A DNA stretch of 55,808 nucleotides from a virus. The translations under genes were made by a program, and so were the position numbers. Positions within the stretch are counted from its first letter, which is position 1; each line of letters starts with the position of its first letter. This document shows positions 1,226 through 55,749 of the stretch, one piece after another. The stretch lies in IMG/VR virus record IMGVR_UViG_3300013100_000002, positions 1 to 55,808 of that record. One strand, written 5' to 3'. The notes beneath the pieces were generated by a model that saw only the letters and a list, made by a program, of their open reading frames with translations, was not told where the DNA came from and made no database searches.

Positions 1226-1254
1226 TAGACAACACACACGGTCGTGTGTATAGT
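1226..1254 (+). promoter_or_regulatory. Sigma70-like promoter of the rightward operon
   Basis: TAGACA (1226-1231) and TATAGT (1249-1254) are separated by exactly 17 bp. The spacer holds a perfect inverted repeat, ACACACG-GT-CGTGTGT (1234-1249), placed as an operator would be. The predicted start, about 1261, coincides with the first base of the leader hairpin, so the transcript would begin with that hairpin. Confidence 0.65.
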
Positions 1255-1260
1255 TATGAA

Positions 1261-1282
1261 TGTCGGAAGTGAAACACCGACA
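1261..1282 (+). promoter_or_regulatory. GTGAAACA-loop leader hairpin, copy 1
   Basis: TGTCGG and CCGACA pair around the 10-nt loop AAGTGAAACA. The sequence CCAACCGAAG follows. The hairpin sits at the predicted 5' end of the operon transcript. Sister hairpins with other stem sequences but the same loop lie upstream of later genes. Confidence 0.6.
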
Positions 1283-1335
1283 CCCAACCGAAGACATCAC
1301 CCGCAGCACGCGGGCACACACAAGGGATAGGCACC

Positions 1336-1572
1336 ATGGCTACCAAGACACTCACGGGCACCGTCGCACGCGTCATCAGGCACGGGCACACGGTCTACGG
1401 CAACCCCATCATGTCCATCGTTCTCGACGGTGATGAGTGGGGTGCCTCGCACCGCATCAGCGACAACGCTTCGATGGTCTACGAAATCGAGAACCCGGAA
1501 TTTCGGGATGATCCGCACACGTTCGCACTCACCCGCGCGGGACGTATCTCCCACGTCATCCGGGAGCGTTGA
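1336..1572 (+). CDS. Hypothetical small protein, first gene of rightward operon
   Basis: 78 residues with no family I recognise. It starts 'MATKTLTGTVARVIRHG', loosely similar to the N-terminus of the next gene ('MATLTATGVIVRVRASG'), which hints at an old duplication. The start is preceded by AAGGGATAGGCACC, close to the GGGATAGG start-associated sequence of cluster K mycobacteriophages, though the resemblance may be chance. The stop is 2 nt before the next ATG, so the two are probably cotranslated. Confidence 0.75.
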   Translation: MATKTLTGTVARVIRHGHTVYGNPIMSIVLDGDEWGASHRISDNASMVYEIENPEFRDDPHTFALTRAGRISHVIRER

Positions 1573-1574
1573 CC

Positions 1575-1790
1575 ATGGCCACGCTCACCGCTACCGGGGT
1601 CATCGTTCGCGTCCGTGCCAGCGGGGCAGAGTACGGCATGCATGACGAATGCGCCGATGCCCTGATTTCGGCCATCGTCGCCACCGGATACAGCGTGCTT
1701 TCCGATGACATGCCCGCTGTCATCATCGGGCCGTTGTTCGCTCCCGCTGACGAATGGACGTGCGCGCACAGCGATTGCGCGCACCGCTGA
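1575..1790 (+). CDS. Hypothetical small protein
   Basis: 71 residues, no recognised domain. The ATG at 1575 is preferred over a TTG two codons upstream that overlaps the previous stop. The N-terminus resembles that of the preceding gene. A structured element begins 8 nt after its stop codon. Confidence 0.7.
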   Translation: MATLTATGVIVRVRASGAEYGMHDECADALISAIVATGYSVLSDDMPAVIIGPLFAPADEWTCAHSDCAHR

Positions 1791-1797
1791 CATCTCC

Positions 1798-1841
1798 CCC
1801 GTGACCGCGTAGGCGGCATCCGGATCACGACCGGGCACGGG
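1798..1841 (+). ncRNA. Three-way-junction RNA element, copy A
   Basis: P1 is CCCGTG (1798-1803) with CACGGG (1836-1841). P2 is CCGC-GTAG-GCGG (1805-1816). After a CAT linker, P3 is CCGG (1820-1823) with CCGG (1831-1834) around a loop containing TCACG, and a single G joins P3 to P1. It lies immediately after a stop codon and about 45 nt upstream of the next gene. Three other copies share the plan with different, compensated stems. Class and function are unknown. Confidence 0.6.
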
Positions 1842-1886
1842 ACACGGCAGGATGAAACCACGTCTTGCACAACCGAAGGGAACACC

Positions 1887-2234
1887 ATGAACACGCCGAA
1901 CGGATACCGCGCCGCACACGTCATCCTGGGTGACAGCGAGCGTCTTCCCGCTTTCCTCCCGACGGATGGGCGTCACTGGAATGGGTTTGCGTTGCCCATC
2001 TTCGATGTCGCCGCGCTCGCAGAGCATCGGGAGATCCTCGCGAGCATCTTCCCGGATGAGCCGGATAACGAAGACGCTCCCGTGCTGTCGTGGGTCGGTG
2101 ACCGCCCGTCGGTGATCTATCCCGAGTGGCCGGATGTTGACGAAGTGCACGATGTCGTCATCGATGGCGCGGCGTTCGTCGGGATCGGTGGCGGATTCGT
2201 CTGGGAGGAATGGGACGCCGACGCCGACGCGTAA
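1887..2234 (+). CDS. Hypothetical acidic protein
   Basis: 115 residues, strongly acidic towards the C-terminus, no recognised domain and no membrane segment. The ATG is preceded by ACAACCGAAGGGAACACC, containing the GAAGGGAA ribosome-binding motif shared by several genes in this operon. It is flanked upstream by a three-way-junction element and downstream by a GTGAAACA hairpin. Confidence 0.78.
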   Translation: MNTPNGYRAAHVILGDSERLPAFLPTDGRHWNGFALPIFDVAALAEHREILASIFPDEPDNEDAPVLSWVGDRPSVIYPEWPDVDEVHDVVIDGAAFVGIGGGFVWEEWDADADA

Positions 2235-2268
2235 CCCGCTCCCCTACTTACATCACCTCCGGGAAGTG

Positions 2269-2288
2269 AAACACCCGGGGATCACACC
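2269..2288 (+). promoter_or_regulatory. GTGAAACA-loop leader hairpin, copy 2
   Basis: CCGGG and CCCGG pair around the loop AAGTGAAACA, followed by CCAACCGAAAG before the next gene's ATG at 2312. There is no three-way junction in this gap, so the hairpin can occur without it. Confidence 0.55.
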
Positions 2289-2311
2289 CAACCGAAAGAA
2301 AGAGAATCATC

Positions 2312-2743
2312 ATGCGTACATCACACAAGACCGGTCTTGCACTCATCGGCGGAATGGTCGCGGGCGTCGCGCTCATGTTCACCGTCGCGGCGACGGATGC
2401 CGACACGGTGCCGAAAGATCAGGACACAGTCACGGTTGCACCCGTCGAGACGATTGCACCCGCTCCCGAGGTCGTGGAAGCTCCCCCGGTCGTCGCGGTG
2501 CCGGAACCCGTCGAGACGGTTGCACCCGTGCCGACGCCCGCGGAAACGATCTCGCCCGTTCCCGAGACACCCGAGTGCGAGGATGCCGCCGTAGCGTGCG
2601 GGCCTGTCGCGACGTGGGATGACGGACGGCTGATCTGCGGGACGAACGCGGCACCCGCGATCGATCAGGATCGATATGGCAATTGGTGGGCGTATTGCGA
2701 GCCTGCCATGGTGAATGACGACGGCACGCTCTGGCAGGGCTGA
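2312..2743 (+). CDS. Predicted secreted or membrane-anchored Pro-rich protein
   Basis: 143 residues. A short basic N-terminus and a hydrophobic segment (about residues 8-26) form a signal peptide or membrane anchor. A Pro/Val/Thr-rich repetitive linker follows (about 30-85, repeated 'VAP/PVETVAP' units), then a C-terminal part with four cysteines that could form disulfides ('ECEDAAVAC', 'LICGTN', 'WWAYCEP'). Such a protein would work at or outside the membrane. A role in host-surface change or superinfection exclusion is possible but only inferred. Confidence 0.78.
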   Translation: MRTSHKTGLALIGGMVAGVALMFTVAATDADTVPKDQDTVTVAPVETIAPAPEVVEAPPVVAVPEPVETVAPVPTPAETISPVPETPECEDAAVACGPVATWDDGRLICGTNAAPAIDQDRYGNWWAYCEPAMVNDDGTLWQG

Positions 2744-2752
2744 CAGCACGAC

Positions 2753-2798
2753 CCCGTGTCATCGCGTAGGCGACGACGGTTCACGACCGGGACACGGG
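2753..2798 (+). ncRNA. Three-way-junction RNA element, copy B
   Basis: P1 is CCCGTGTC (2753-2760) with GACACGGG (2791-2798), 8 bp. P2 is CGC-GTAG-GCG (2763-2772). P3 is CGGT/ACCG around TCACG (2777-2789), joined to P1 by one G. It begins 9 nt after the preceding stop codon and is followed within 8 nt by a GTGAAACA hairpin. Confidence 0.62.
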
Positions 2799-2805
2799 AC
2801 AGCAT

Positions 2806-2823
2806 CGGGAAGTGAAACACCCG
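2806..2823 (+). promoter_or_regulatory. GTGAAACA-loop leader hairpin, copy 3
   Basis: CGGG and CCCG pair around AAGTGAAACA. GACCGAAGGGAA follows at once and supplies the RBS of the next gene, so hairpin and RBS may be one unit. Confidence 0.58.
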
Positions 2824-2845
2824 GGCACGACCGAAGGGAATGACG

Positions 2846-3418
2846 ATGAGCGCATACAAGGATGATTTCTCGGCATGGGCGGAATATGTCGCGGGTGAAC
2901 TTGCGAAGTTCTACGATCACACGGGCGGCATCACGTATCTATTCCAGAACACGCCCCGCGCGAACGCGTGGCTTGCCCGGGCGGCATCGCGTGGCATGAC
3001 GACGGAACAGGCCGCTTTCTACGGTGCCCCGCACATGGTGCGCGGGCTGGTGACGTCCGAATTCCGGCAATGGTGGATTGAGCACTGGGGAACGGAGCGT
3101 GTGACGTTCTCCGAGTGGCGGGAGCGCGCGGCAGAGCAGCGGGAGCAAGTCGCGTGGGAGGAATCCGCAGAGCGCGCGTTGGATCAGCTTGAGATGTTGC
3201 GTCGCCTCACGTCAGAGCGTGACGCGCTCATTCTCGACGCGGCGTCGAAGGGGGCGACGAAGGTCGCGATTGCCCGGGCGGTCGGTCTGTCGCGTCAGCA
3301 AATCCACACGATCCTCGCGAACGCGACCGTGCCCGATGTTGCGCCGTTCGCCGAGTGGGAGCAGAGCGCGCCGACGACGGTGGAAGCCGACGCCGAGGTG
3401 TGGGGCGAGGTGTTCTAG
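2846..3418 (+). CDS. Predicted helix-turn-helix DNA-binding protein
   Basis: 190 residues. The C-terminal part, about residues 118-165, reads as a helix-turn-helix ('ATKVAIARAVGLSRQQIHTI'), like the recognition region of sigma factors or resolvases. The first two thirds are helical, with many Trp and Glu, and are unrecognised. The ATG at 2846 is chosen over 2840 because GAAGGGA would be too close to the earlier one. It is a candidate regulator of this operon or of the nearby repeats. Confidence 0.72.
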   Translation: MSAYKDDFSAWAEYVAGELAKFYDHTGGITYLFQNTPRANAWLARAASRGMTTEQAAFYGAPHMVRGLVTSEFRQWWIEHWGTERVTFSEWRERAAEQREQVAWEESAERALDQLEMLRRLTSERDALILDAASKGATKVAIARAVGLSRQQIHTILANATVPDVAPFAEWEQSAPTTVEADAEVWGEVF

Positions 3419-3428
3419 TTGCAGGATC

Positions 3429-3473
3429 GCACGTTCCGCGTAGGCGGCATCCGGCGTCATGGCCGGGACGTGC
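3429..3473 (+). ncRNA. Three-way-junction RNA element, copy C
   Basis: P1 is GCACGT (3429-3434) with ACGTGC (3468-3473), unrelated in sequence to copies A and B but still paired. P2 is CCGC-GTAG-GCGG (3436-3447). After CAT, P3 is CCGGC/GCCGG around GTCATG (3451-3466), with a single-G joint to P1. It starts 10 nt after the preceding stop. Confidence 0.62.
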
Positions 3474-3494
3474 ACGGTTGCAGATTGCAGCTCT

Positions 3495-3512
3495 CGGCAC
3501 GTGAAACAGCCG
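3495..3512 (+). promoter_or_regulatory. GTGAAACA-loop leader hairpin, copy 4
   Basis: CGGC and GCCG pair around ACGTGAAACA. TCGAAGGGAAG follows and serves as RBS. The stem differs from copies 1-3 at paired positions while the loop is kept. Confidence 0.58.
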
Positions 3513-3535
3513 GGATGTCGAAGGGAAGTTGCACC

Positions 3536-3793
3536 ATGTTCGCATCACAGGATCTCGCCATTCGGCCTACCGCCGAGGGCTGGGATGAGCCGACGAATGA
3601 GCCGAACCCGATCCTGGTGGAGATCCGCCGGGTCTACCGGGCGAACGGGTGGAAGTTGCGGCCGGCGCTCGAGCTGCGGTTGCTCGACACGACCTATCCG
3701 AACGCACGGCCCGATCAGATCGCCCATGCTCGCGAGGTACTCACGCGTTGCATGACGGCGCGGTTGCCGCATCGGAAGTTGCGTCGGCGATGA
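3536..3793 (+). CDS. Hypothetical small protein
   Basis: 85 residues, unrecognised, predicted mostly helical with a basic C-terminus ('LPHRKLRRR'). The ATG at 3536 follows GAAGGGAAGTTGCACC. Its stop overlaps the next gene's start (ATGATGA), so the two are translationally coupled. Confidence 0.72.
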   Translation: MFASQDLAIRPTAEGWDEPTNEPNPILVEIRRVYRANGWKLRPALELRLLDTTYPNARPDQIAHAREVLTRCMTARLPHRKLRRR

Positions 3794-3957
3794 TGCTCGA
3801 GGGGCTCTTGCAGCCGCCCGTTGCGTCGCCCGAGTACGAGCGGCAGTTGCAGCCGCTCGCCGGCGTGCGGTGGCCGCAGGGCGAGCGCAGGGCGCCGGTG
3901 GCGGGCGAAGTTGCGATGTTCGACGTCACCGATCCGGGCGTATTGCAGGACTGGTGA
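3790..3957 (+). CDS. Hypothetical small protein, coupled to the preceding gene
   Basis: 55 residues, unrecognised. Its ATG overlaps the TGA of the upstream gene, and it probably depends on that gene's translation. The next element downstream is a GTGAAACA hairpin. Confidence 0.6.
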   Translation: MMLEGLLQPPVASPEYERQLQPLAGVRWPQGERRAPVAGEVAMFDVTDPGVLQDW

Positions 3958-3967
3958 CATGAAGATG

Positions 3968-4008
3968 CCCCGGCTCGACCTCCGATGGAGGGTGAAACAG
4001 AGCCGGGG
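3968..4008 (+). promoter_or_regulatory. GTGAAACA leader hairpin with nested stem, copy 5
   Basis: The outer stem CCCCGGCTC/GAGCCGGGG (9 bp) encloses an inner stem CCTCC-GAT-GGAGG, and GTGAAACA lies directly before the 3' strand of the outer stem, as in the other copies. CCAACCGAAGGGAA follows and precedes the ATG at 4037. Confidence 0.58.
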
Positions 4009-4036
4009 CGTGGAATCCAACCGAAGGGAAGGAACC

Positions 4037-4273
4037 ATGAGCGATTCTACAGCGCATGGGATGATTGCAGGTATGACCGATCAGTACCTAGGGCCAGCCG
4101 GAGTTGCGGCACGCATCGGTGTTGCGCCGGCGACGGTGCGCGGGTACGCGGCTCAGGGGAAGATGCCTCCGGCTGACGTCAAGATCGACGCGAACTCGGG
4201 ATGGTCGGAAGAGACGATCGAGGCGTGGATTGCGAGCCGCCCGGGTCGCGGCGTCCGCACGCCGGCCGACTGA
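4037..4273 (+). CDS. Small HTH protein, MerR/excisionase-like
   Basis: 78 residues. 'YLGPAGVAARIGVAPATVRG' (about residues 18-37) is a typical winged-helix or MerR-type turn, and the C-terminus has the pattern 'W-x-x-x-T-I-E-A-W' common in excisionase-like and small phage HTH proteins. It is last in the rightward operon and probably binds DNA as a regulator. It is distinct from the excisionase candidate at 27474-27662. Confidence 0.75.
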   Translation: MSDSTAHGMIAGMTDQYLGPAGVAARIGVAPATVRGYAAQGKMPPADVKIDANSGWSEETIEAWIASRPGRGVRTPAD

Positions 4274-4276
4274 ATT

Positions 4277-4304
4277 GCACCTACGGGAGCAATCCCGGGT
4301 GCCG
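4277..4304 (+). terminator. Possible terminator of the rightward operon
   Basis: GCACC pairs with GGTGC and GGGA with TCCC around GCAA, followed on the plus strand by GTCGTCTCTTT. It lies between convergent genes and overlaps the 3' end of the HNH gene. The stem has a bulge and the T-tract is interrupted, so this is tentative. Confidence 0.35.
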
Positions 4305-4589
4305 TCGTCTCTTTGCAGCTCTCCGACGCGCCGACGCGGCCTGACCGCCTTCTGACGAGCTCTTCACGCGGTGGTGGTACTCGCAGAGAGATTGCAGGTT
4401 CGAGGGCGAGTGGTCGTGGGACCGGCTCTGATCCTTGTGGTCGACCTGATTCGCGTATTGCAAGCATTTGCGTTCGGTGTCGACGCGCACGTGCTGGCAC
4501 TGGTGCCGGTCGCGGGTGAGGATGAACTTGCAGATCTGGGGCCAGTCGGGGGGAAGTTGCGACTTCCGGTTCGACGTCGACCATGCCAC
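4281..4589 (-). CDS. HNH endonuclease
   Basis: 102 residues. The HNH fold is visible: 'QCQH...RKC' then 'ANQVDHKD' and 'SNLQSLCEYHHRVKS', with a basic tail. HNH proteins nick or cut DNA; in phages they act in packaging, homing or recombination. The GTG at 4589 follows GAGAGG. It is the last gene of the long leftward operon and not next to the terminase, so a homing or recombination role is more likely than packaging. Confidence 0.82.
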   Translation of the reverse strand: MAWSTSNRKSQLPPDWPQICKFILTRDRHQCQHVRVDTERKCLQYANQVDHKDQSRSHDHSPSNLQSLCEYHHRVKSSSEGGQAASARRRAAKRRRHPGLLP

Positions 4590-25661: not shown

Positions 25662-25688
25662 CCGTGCTCTCCTTCGTGCATAGAGAAG

Positions 25689-25714
25689 GCCCGAGCGGTT
25701 TCACACGCTCGGGC
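25689..25714 (-). promoter_or_regulatory. GTGAAAC-loop leader hairpin on the minus strand
   Basis: GCCCGAGCG pairs perfectly with CGCTCGGGC (9 bp) around the loop TGTGAAAC, which again lies just before the 3' stem strand. It is 28 nt upstream of the Arg-rich gene's ATG. The stem shares no sequence with the plus-strand copies. Confidence 0.58.
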
Positions 25715-25748: not shown

Positions 25749-25795
25749 GCCCTGCCCGACCATGACGTCGGCACCGCCTCGAGCGGCCACAGGGC
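25749..25795 (-). ncRNA. Three-way-junction RNA element, copy D
   Basis: Read on the minus strand: P1 GCCCTG/CAGGGC, P2 CCGC-TCGAG-GCGG, P3 CCGAC/GTCGG around GTCATG, and a single G joining P3 to P1. It starts 6 nt after the stop codon of the SPFH gene. Compared with copy C, P1 and P3 change on both strands while pairing is kept. Confidence 0.62.
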
Positions 25796-25801
25796 GACCT
25801 A

Positions 25802-26746
25802 CTACTTGGTCACGTTGACGAGACCGTTGAAGCCCTCGGGGACGACGACGAGGTTGCCCTCCTTCGCGAGCTTCGCGAGCGTGTCGAGGTAGCGCTGCTG
25901 AAGCACCGGCCCCGACAGCGACTCGGAGAGGATGCGGTTCGCATCCGCCTCTGCCTGCGCCGATGCGATGAGCGTCTCGTTCTCGACTTCCTTCGTGCGC
26001 TGGTTGGCCTCGGCCTCCTGCGCCTTCTGGTTCGCCTGCTCGATGCTGGTCAGCGACTTCTCGACGTCTTCGGAGAACCGAACGTCCTGGATGGTCACCG
26101 CGGAGAACTCGACGCCGTACTTCCCGAGCTTCTCGTTGAGTGCATCCAGGATGCGGGTCTCTGCCTCGCCGCGCTTGGAGCCACGGAACTCGATCGCGCT
26201 GTACTCGGACGGCACCTGGCGGGAGATCGAGAGCACCTGACGCGTGACGATCTGCTCCGTGAACCGCTCCTGCGACCGGTACTCGGAGTAGAGATCCTCG
26301 ATCGCGTCAGCGTCGATCGAGTACACGAACGTCATGTCGACCTGCGCCTGAGTGGAGCCACCCGATACGCCGCCGACCGAGACTGTGATCTCGCGGCCGT
26401 TGACGGTGCCGCCTGTGTAGCTCGGTGCGCCACCATCGTTGCCGGCGAAGACGAGCTCCTGGGAGAAGAGATCGAAGTCGACGAAGTCTTCCCATGGTGC
26501 TCGGAAGCCGGAGCCGGGTTCCTCGACCGTGCCGACGACTTGCCGGTCGACCGAGTTGACCTTGACCTTCGCCTCGCCGACGCCGTTGGCGTAGAACGTG
26601 GCGAAGAAGATCGACACGGCCGCGGCGATCACCGCGATCACGGTGACGACGATCGAGCCGAATCTCAGGTCTTTGCTGAAGGTCGCGACGATGATCGCGA
26701 TCACGGCGATCACCGCGAGGATGATCGCAAGGATGAACAGGAACAT
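25802..26746 (-). CDS. SPFH/prohibitin-family membrane protein
   Basis: 314 residues. Two N-terminal hydrophobic segments (about 1-24 and 30-52) anchor an SPFH domain (about 55-235: 'FYANGVGEAKVKVNSVDRQV', 'SQAQVDMTFVYSIDADAIED' pattern, 'SAVTIQDVRFSEDVEKSLTS'), then a Glu/Ala coiled coil with 'QANQKAQEAEANQ'. SPFH proteins form ring assemblies at the membrane; some phage homologues guard against lysis inhibition or proteolysis. Here it may organise the many small membrane proteins nearby. Confidence 0.88.
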   Translation of the reverse strand: MFLFILAIILAVIAVIAIIVATFSKDLRFGSIVVTVIAVIAAAVSIFFATFYANGVGEAKVKVNSVDRQVVGTVEEPGSGFRAPWEDFVDFDLFSQELVFAGNDGGAPSYTGGTVNGREITVSVGGVSGGSTQAQVDMTFVYSIDADAIEDLYSEYRSQERFTEQIVTRQVLSISRQVPSEYSAIEFRGSKRGEAETRILDALNEKLGKYGVEFSAVTIQDVRFSEDVEKSLTSIEQANQKAQEAEANQRTKEVENETLIASAQAEADANRILSESLSGPVLQQRYLDTLAKLAKEGNLVVVPEGFNGLVNVTK

Positions 26747-55673: not shown

Positions 55674-55749
55674 TGGCTCCCGGGGCAGGGCTCGAACCTG
55701 CGACCTGCCGATTAACAGTCGGACGCTCTGCCAACTGAGCTACCCGGGA
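55674..55749 (-). tRNA. tRNA-Asn (GTT), complete copy
   Basis: Acceptor stem TCCCGGG/CCCGGGA, anticodon loop CTGTTAA (GTT, Asn), T-loop TTCGAGC, discriminator G and an encoded CCA. It is the complete version of the partial tRNA at 1-64 and is next to the terminase. It pairs with tRNA-Gln across the circle junction. Confidence 0.92.

Follow-up and report, generated by a model that had tools for sequence, protein, structure and literature searches.

The REP elements of E. coli are sequence-conserved single hairpins that occur in chromosomes, close to stop codons. Their position near stop codons was reportedly described by Stern and Higgins and, in 2015, by Liang, Rudd and Deutscher. The element considered here, a three-way RNA junction of phages, resembles them in being a stable intercistronic RNA structure that begins shortly after a stop. 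Unlike REP elements, it is a three-way junction whose helices covary and whose loops are conserved, and it is found in phages.

Intercistronic RNA structures also occur in phage T7, where long hairpins at intergenic sites are cut by RNase III. Such a structure could define stable message units, and the same may be said of the junction. However, the longest helix of the junction is only about 8 bp.

A conserved bacterial RNA structure that lies 3' of a coding region, and not in a 5' leader, is the L17 downstream element (RF01708; PMC2864571). It is tied to one ribosomal-protein gene in Firmicutes, whereas the junction follows many unrelated phage genes and has no Rfam match.

The nearest described elements are SAS and ESAS of the cluster K and Microbacterium cluster EF phages (PMC3203893, PMC7302621). 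Like the junction, they are repeated, oriented and intercistronic, have no known function, and occur before unrelated genes in the non-structural part of actinobacteriophage genomes. They differ in being tied to the start codon and conserved in sequence, while the junction is tied to the upstream stop and conserved in structure, with compensating changes. For the cluster K elements, the authors find little support for a hairpin.

The junction is not the ESAS of cluster EF phages. In AnnaSerena, a cultured Microbacterium phage (L322), the ESAS (GTAGAG) is a different element with a location more downstream, and two models of the junction family, R1 and R2, find no match in AnnaSerena or Anaya. 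By our own reading, AnnaSerena has long plain hairpins without T-runs some 4-8 nt after several of its stops, so structures that follow stops seem to use this site quite generally.

The junction and its family

The window, by which we mean the whole stretch of DNA analysed, is a virus record of 55,808 bases whose genes match those of Microbacterium and other actinophages. It has tRNA genes at both ends, at 1-165 and 55674-55749 on the minus strand (a partial tRNA, tRNA-Gln and tRNA-Asn). The window ends may therefore be host sequence flanking a prophage, or the genes may be phage tRNAs. Each copy of the junction has an outer stem (P1) enclosing two hairpins (P2 and P3, with loops L2 and L3), joined by short segments (J2/3 and J3/1). 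The copies and the features next to them are as follows.

1788 to 1790, plus strand: TGA stop of the ORF at 1569-1790, 7 nt 5' of copy 1
1798 to 1841, plus strand: copy 1; P1 CCCGTG (1798-1803) with CACGGG (1836-1841); P2 CCGC (1805-1808) with GCGG (1813-1816), loop GTAG, then J2/3 CAT; P3 CCGG (1820-1823) with CCGG (1831-1834), loop ATCACGA; J3/1 G
2741 to 2743, plus strand: TGA stop of the ORF at 2312-2743, 9 nt 5' of copy 2
2753 to 2798, plus strand: copy 2; P1 CCCGTGTC with GACACGGG; P2 TCGC with GCGA, loop GTAG; P3 CGGT with ACCG, loop TCACG; J3/1 G
2801 to 2825, plus strand: second, variable hairpin (CATCGGGAAGTGAAACACCCGGG region) with a GTGAAAC loop, 3' of copy 2
3416 to 3418, plus strand: TAG stop of the ORF at 2840-3418 (weak HTH protein), 10 nt 5' of copy 3
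3429 to 3473, plus strand: copy 3; P1 GCACGT with ACGTGC; P2 CCGC with GCGG, loop GTAG; P3 CCGGC with GCCGG, loop GTCATG
3497 to 3516, plus strand: hairpin with a GTGAAAC loop (CGGC...GCCG), between copy 3 and the next start at 3536
25687 to 25714, minus strand: hairpin with a GTGAAAC loop (GGCCCGAGCG..CGCTCGGGCC), between copy 4 and the next gene
25749 to 25795, minus strand: copy 4; P1 GCCCTG with CAGGGC; P2 CCGC with GCGG, loop TCGAG; P3 CCGAC with GTCGG, loop GTCATG; J3/1 G
25799 to 25804, minus strand: tandem TAG TAG stops of the ORF at 25802-26746 (phrog_200), the first stop 6 nt 5' of copy 4

An earlier note on this DNA had described four such elements, and reading the sequence together with ViennaRNA places all four where it put them, folding as three-way junctions. 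The junction is the minimum-energy fold of each (4/4; z -1.6 to -2.9). A structural descriptor (P1 of at least 5 bp, P2 of at least 4 bp, P3 of at least 3 bp and TC[AG][CT]G in L3) gives four matches scoring at least 12 in the window, compared with 0.37 on average, and never more than 2, in 60 dinucleotide shuffles. The note had also placed each element 6-10 nt after a stop and ahead of another gene; the gaps from stop to P1 are indeed 7, 9, 10 and 6 nt for copies 1-4 (copy 4 counted from the first TAG), and a gene lies downstream in all four cases. It was right, too, that CCCGTG, CCCGTGTC, GCACGT and GCCCTG each pair exactly with the opposite strand of the stem. Its other sequence rules proved too narrow. 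P2 is CCGC/GCGG in copies 1, 3 and 4, but TCGC/GCGA, a compensated change, in copy 2. The single G between P3 and P1 is listed for copies 1, 2 and 4, but in the family this joint is mostly A, or paired. The TCACG or TCATG loop is present in the window copies, and its family-wide form is the broader TC[AG][CT]G.

Pattern scans of viral contigs and bacterial genomes followed by a structure filter yielded 51 distinct curated copies, and about 45 distinct copies lie outside the window, in viral contigs and a few actinobacterial genomes. The curated set includes copies from a Demequina genome (L115), a Propionibacteriaceae MAG (L099) and the genome G185 (L163); a further copy, in G816 (L325), stands outside it. 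A protein search with the gene between window copies 2 and 3 led to a related viral contig with three copies (L003). One of these occupies the site of window copy 3, 3' of the homologous gene, with P1 GCGCGT/ACGCGC where the window has GCACGT/ACGTGC. Another has P2 in the form ACGC/GCGT.

The whole element measures about 45-50 nt. P1 has 5-9 bp of free sequence and is followed by 0-3 nt and then by P2, mostly CCGC/GCGG. L2 is 4-6 nt long with G at its 3' end (most commonly GTAG, GAAG or GCAG), J2/3 is usually CRN, P3 has 3-6 bp, and J3/1 is often A. L3 carries UC[AG][CU]G, mostly with U or C before it and A after it. The dinucleotide AC directly follows P1 in 41 of 51 copies, compared with 3 of 31 decoys, which are weak descriptor matches set aside by hand for want of the CCGC/GCGG core, the AC flank and the J features.

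While L2 and L3 are conserved, helix sequences change completely. P1 differs between nearly all copies with its complementarity constant, as in GTGCTAGT/ACTAGCAC, TCCCCTG/CAGGGGA and GGTGTGG/CCACACC. P2 and P3 can be fully replaced, for instance by CCGGG/CCCGG (L163), CCCT/AGGG with CTG/CAG (L127) or GGCAC/GTGCC (L123). The most divergent copies (L127 6418-6463 and L099 3698-4836) have P2 and L2 fully replaced and keep L3 (TCGCG, TCGTG), the junction and the stop spacing; they are useful for defining a minimal element.

The earlier note took the repeats for a selected RNA structure and not a DNA repeat, and the further copies bear this out. In an alignment of 12 gap-free copies made without reference to structure, 96.9% of cells are paired, compared with 72.8% after shuffling and 31-47% when the partners are slid, and there are 42 double changes compared with 13.4. 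The corresponding figures for 39 distinct copies outside the window, whose alignment was fitted to the structure and leans towards it, are 95.9% paired versus 73.9% shuffled and 115 double changes versus 30.2, with none of 500 shuffles reaching either figure. Changes on both sides occur at all eight positions of P1 and at the outer pair of P2 and of P3.

A covariance model had been proposed in the same note. Many extra copies exist in other contigs and retain the pairing, and none of the outcomes that the note named as refuting its view was observed, with pair counts under shuffle and slide controls as the measure of covariation. Model R1 recovers most of the copies left out of its building. 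R2, built from 40 copies with the window and its closest relative (L003) excluded, matches window copies 1, 2 and 3 with E-values of 1.2e-9, 6.2e-12 and 5.7e-6. Copy 4 matches weakly (E 0.04), since its L2 loop has 5 nt and its P3 is altered; all of its structural parts and its stop spacing are present nonetheless.

Within the helices, if neither the outermost pair nor the loop-closing position is counted, there are 14 wobble cells and 3 A.C cells. Such an excess is expected if selection is on the sense (mRNA-strand) RNA. The fold is under selection and acts on the sense strand, and it is near certain that the structured RNA family is real. That it belongs to no described family, as the note supposed, agrees with the lack of any Rfam 15 match. 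A gathering search of the whole window returned tRNAs only, permissive searches of window 1300-4500 and of the L031 copies gave nothing overlapping a sense copy, and the ribozyme (including hammerhead) and riboswitch families did not match. No description of the junction was found among the open-access papers searched.

Placement between genes and among phages

The element sits between co-directional genes, on the sense strand of the upstream gene in every curated copy with an identifiable upstream gene, and it is anchored to that gene's stop. Pairing begins 5-10 nt 3' of the stop (mode 7) in 43 of 51 copies, which puts a stable structure within 15 nt of it, compared with 2 of 31 decoys (Fisher 1e-12). 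This contrast is somewhat favourable, as copies and decoys were told apart by eye while the gap values were visible. Of the eight exceptions, three also have a closer stop in a different frame. Independent of the decoys is a random-placement test on 33 intergenic cases, 32 of which fall at 5-10 nt; random placement in the same gaps gives 3.6 on average and at most 12. The identity of the stop varies (TGA 19, TAG 19, TAA 5).

The distance to the next start is loose. It ranges over 29-87 nt, and in the 33 intergenic cases it has a median of 46 and an sd of 12, while the stop distance has a median of 7 and an sd of 1.9. The start-codon location that characterizes SAS and ESAS is thus absent. A tight tie to the stop combined with a loose tie to the start also makes it less likely that the element is a riboswitch or a translational operator acting on the gene that follows. 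The flanking and downstream genes are unrelated small proteins with no common function or pathway, which likewise speaks against a riboswitch acting on the gene downstream.

Stop-codon readthrough or recoding was considered as well, since window copies 1-3 are in frame with the next gene. The family does not follow this pattern: the next start is in frame in about 10 of 25 cases, and several copies have tandem or early in-frame stops. Neither the fixed stop codon nor the conserved open frame across the element that mark recoding stimulators, for example those of selenocysteine, is found.

Most gaps contain a second hairpin between the element and the next start (23 of 35 with z < -1). Its sequence is variable and unrelated between copies, and the ribosome-binding site of the gene that follows stays accessible beside it.

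In the window, the heptamer GTGAAAC is found at 1269, 2266, 2812, 3501 and 3992 on the plus strand and at 25698, 26766 and 5514 on the minus strand. Most of the plus-strand occurrences, and the one at 25698, form the loop of a short hairpin just 5' of a ribosome-binding site. The heptamer also occurs in the L003 contig, where one instance reads GTGAGAC and is matched by CTCAC in the junction loop, and at a comparable site in L274 and L289. A TATAGT box stands directly 5' of the first GTGAAAC hairpin (window 1244-1284), an arrangement kept in L003 (4160-4200); this region is probably the promoter and 5' end of the leftmost operon. In another contig (L123, 9381-13215), GGTGCATGATGGTCACATCACC follows at least four of five junction copies and represents a separate second repeat family.

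A kissing-loop interaction between TCAC or CTCAC of L3 and GTGA of the GTGAAAC hairpin was rejected as a general feature, most other phages having no GTGAAAC. The pairing does fit copy 2 of the window and two copies in L003, in one of which both partners have changed together (CTCAC with GTGAG). In the phage group of the window and L003, such a contact may form.

The element is common to otherwise unrelated phages. The window, the L003 and L060 contigs and G185 have virion proteins in common; outside that one group, no protein family common to the carriers was found by blastp at 1e-6. Carriers range from 44% to 71% in G+C and have 1-5 copies each, ahead of unrelated genes. Some structural proteins of the carriers tested are related to those of Streptomyces, Mycobacterium and Arthrobacter phages, and one carrier's terminase also has a close relative in a Microcystis phage. 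An actinobacterial host range is likely, though not established for every metagenomic contig.

The junction is not a normal feature of host chromosomes, as it is rare in the actinobacterial genomes searched. There were few matches in 395 genomes of the class and 296 of the phylum, and two credible matches in 400 genomes of the family of G185; other inspected matches (L326-L330) look like one repeated sequence inside a gene. The scarcity of credible matches indicates that the element belongs to phages. Among 50,697 cultured-phage records, short blastn, which is insensitive to a structure-conserved motif, gave no credible copy, and the best matches inspected lie inside genes. R2 applied to 14 chosen cultured-phage records gave a best E of only 0.01.

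Models for the function of the junction

The link of the junction to the stop, rather than to the start, favours a function that bears on what becomes of the upstream message or of the ribosome departing from it. The model we favour, though we would place it somewhat below an even chance, is that the junction is a conserved cis-acting element of phage mRNA that would serve as the 3'-boundary module, or cap, of the upstream cistron. In this model, the junction would lie just beyond the footprint of a ribosome whose A site holds the stop codon, and could therefore be folded during translation of the upstream gene. The folded junction would deny nucleases, and possibly Rho, access to the upstream message by way of the untranslated gap. 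The second hairpin and the ribosome-binding site would form the 5' boundary of the next cistron, and the polycistronic transcript would thereby be split into separately stabilised, separately translated units. The conserved L3 (UC[AG][CU]G) and the G-ending L2 may dock together, hardening the fold, or may be read by a common host factor; given that no phage protein is common to the carriers, a host factor would be the simplest partner.

Two points weigh against the boundary model. A plain hairpin could suffice for it, and the need for a three-way junction with conserved loops goes unexplained unless there is docking or a partner. Furthermore, the tight upper limit on the stop distance exceeds what pure 3'-end protection needs, and points equally to a role coupled to the ribosome. 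In such a role, the junction would sit at the mRNA entry and slow or modulate termination, recycling or re-initiation, and would in this way determine how much the upstream gene yields or uncouple the gene that follows. REP hairpins close to E. coli stop codons offer a comparison. Contact with a terminating ribosome would be expected to produce spacing that is tight on both sides, as observed, and independent of both the stop's identity and the next start. On the other hand, AnnaSerena has other stable hairpins at the same place, the spacing may only mirror avoidance of the footprint, and a roadblock would need no conserved loops, so we regard this role as rather unlikely. A broader idea, doubtful but not quite so unlikely, is that of a phage RNA device working on the terminating ribosome or read jointly with it: a stop-anchored three-way junction whose docked or protein-read loop pair would decide, at each gene end so marked, what becomes of the message, spread or kept across unrelated phages and with no catalogued counterpart.

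Conserved loops would be explained directly if a host-encoded or highly diverged phage RNA-binding protein read L2 and L3 to control decay, translation or antitermination. Complete replacement of the helices around these loops is consistent with this, as is the presence of 1-5 copies per phage before unrelated genes. A binding site is nevertheless less likely still, considering that the carriers have no phage protein in common at 1e-6, that a site serving purely as an operator should be linked to the start of the next gene, as this one is not, and that the element is rare in host chromosomes. A transcriptional role, as a terminator, an attenuator or a Rho-blocking or antitermination signal at the start of the untranslated gap, would suit GC-rich folds that occupy the first untranslated bases inside operons and are followed by a second hairpin. 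It appears improbable. No T-run follows the junction in 34 of 35 copies (TTTT lies within 20 nt in the other), so the element is not a classical intrinsic terminator, and with the ribosome-binding sites of the next genes close behind, termination there would silence those genes. Small self-cleaving or otherwise catalytic RNAs that process a polycistronic transcript could also take the form of a multi-copy, intercistronic three-way junction with conserved unpaired loops in unrelated phages. This is very improbable here: no Rfam ribozyme matches, the conserved residues are few and lie in the terminal loops rather than the junction, and no conserved cleavage-site pattern was recognised.

Structured RNAs that follow coding regions in bacteria and phages have been little studied compared with 5' leader elements. 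The present family combines a strict rule of about 7 nt from the stop with strong covariation, in carriers of 44% to 71% G+C without shared proteins, and this combination points to a common host rule for the fate of messages at the end of translation. It suggests that a stop-tied three-way junction controls message fate where translation ends. The junction is a testable, portable element of 45 nt, for which natural compensatory mutants are already at hand.
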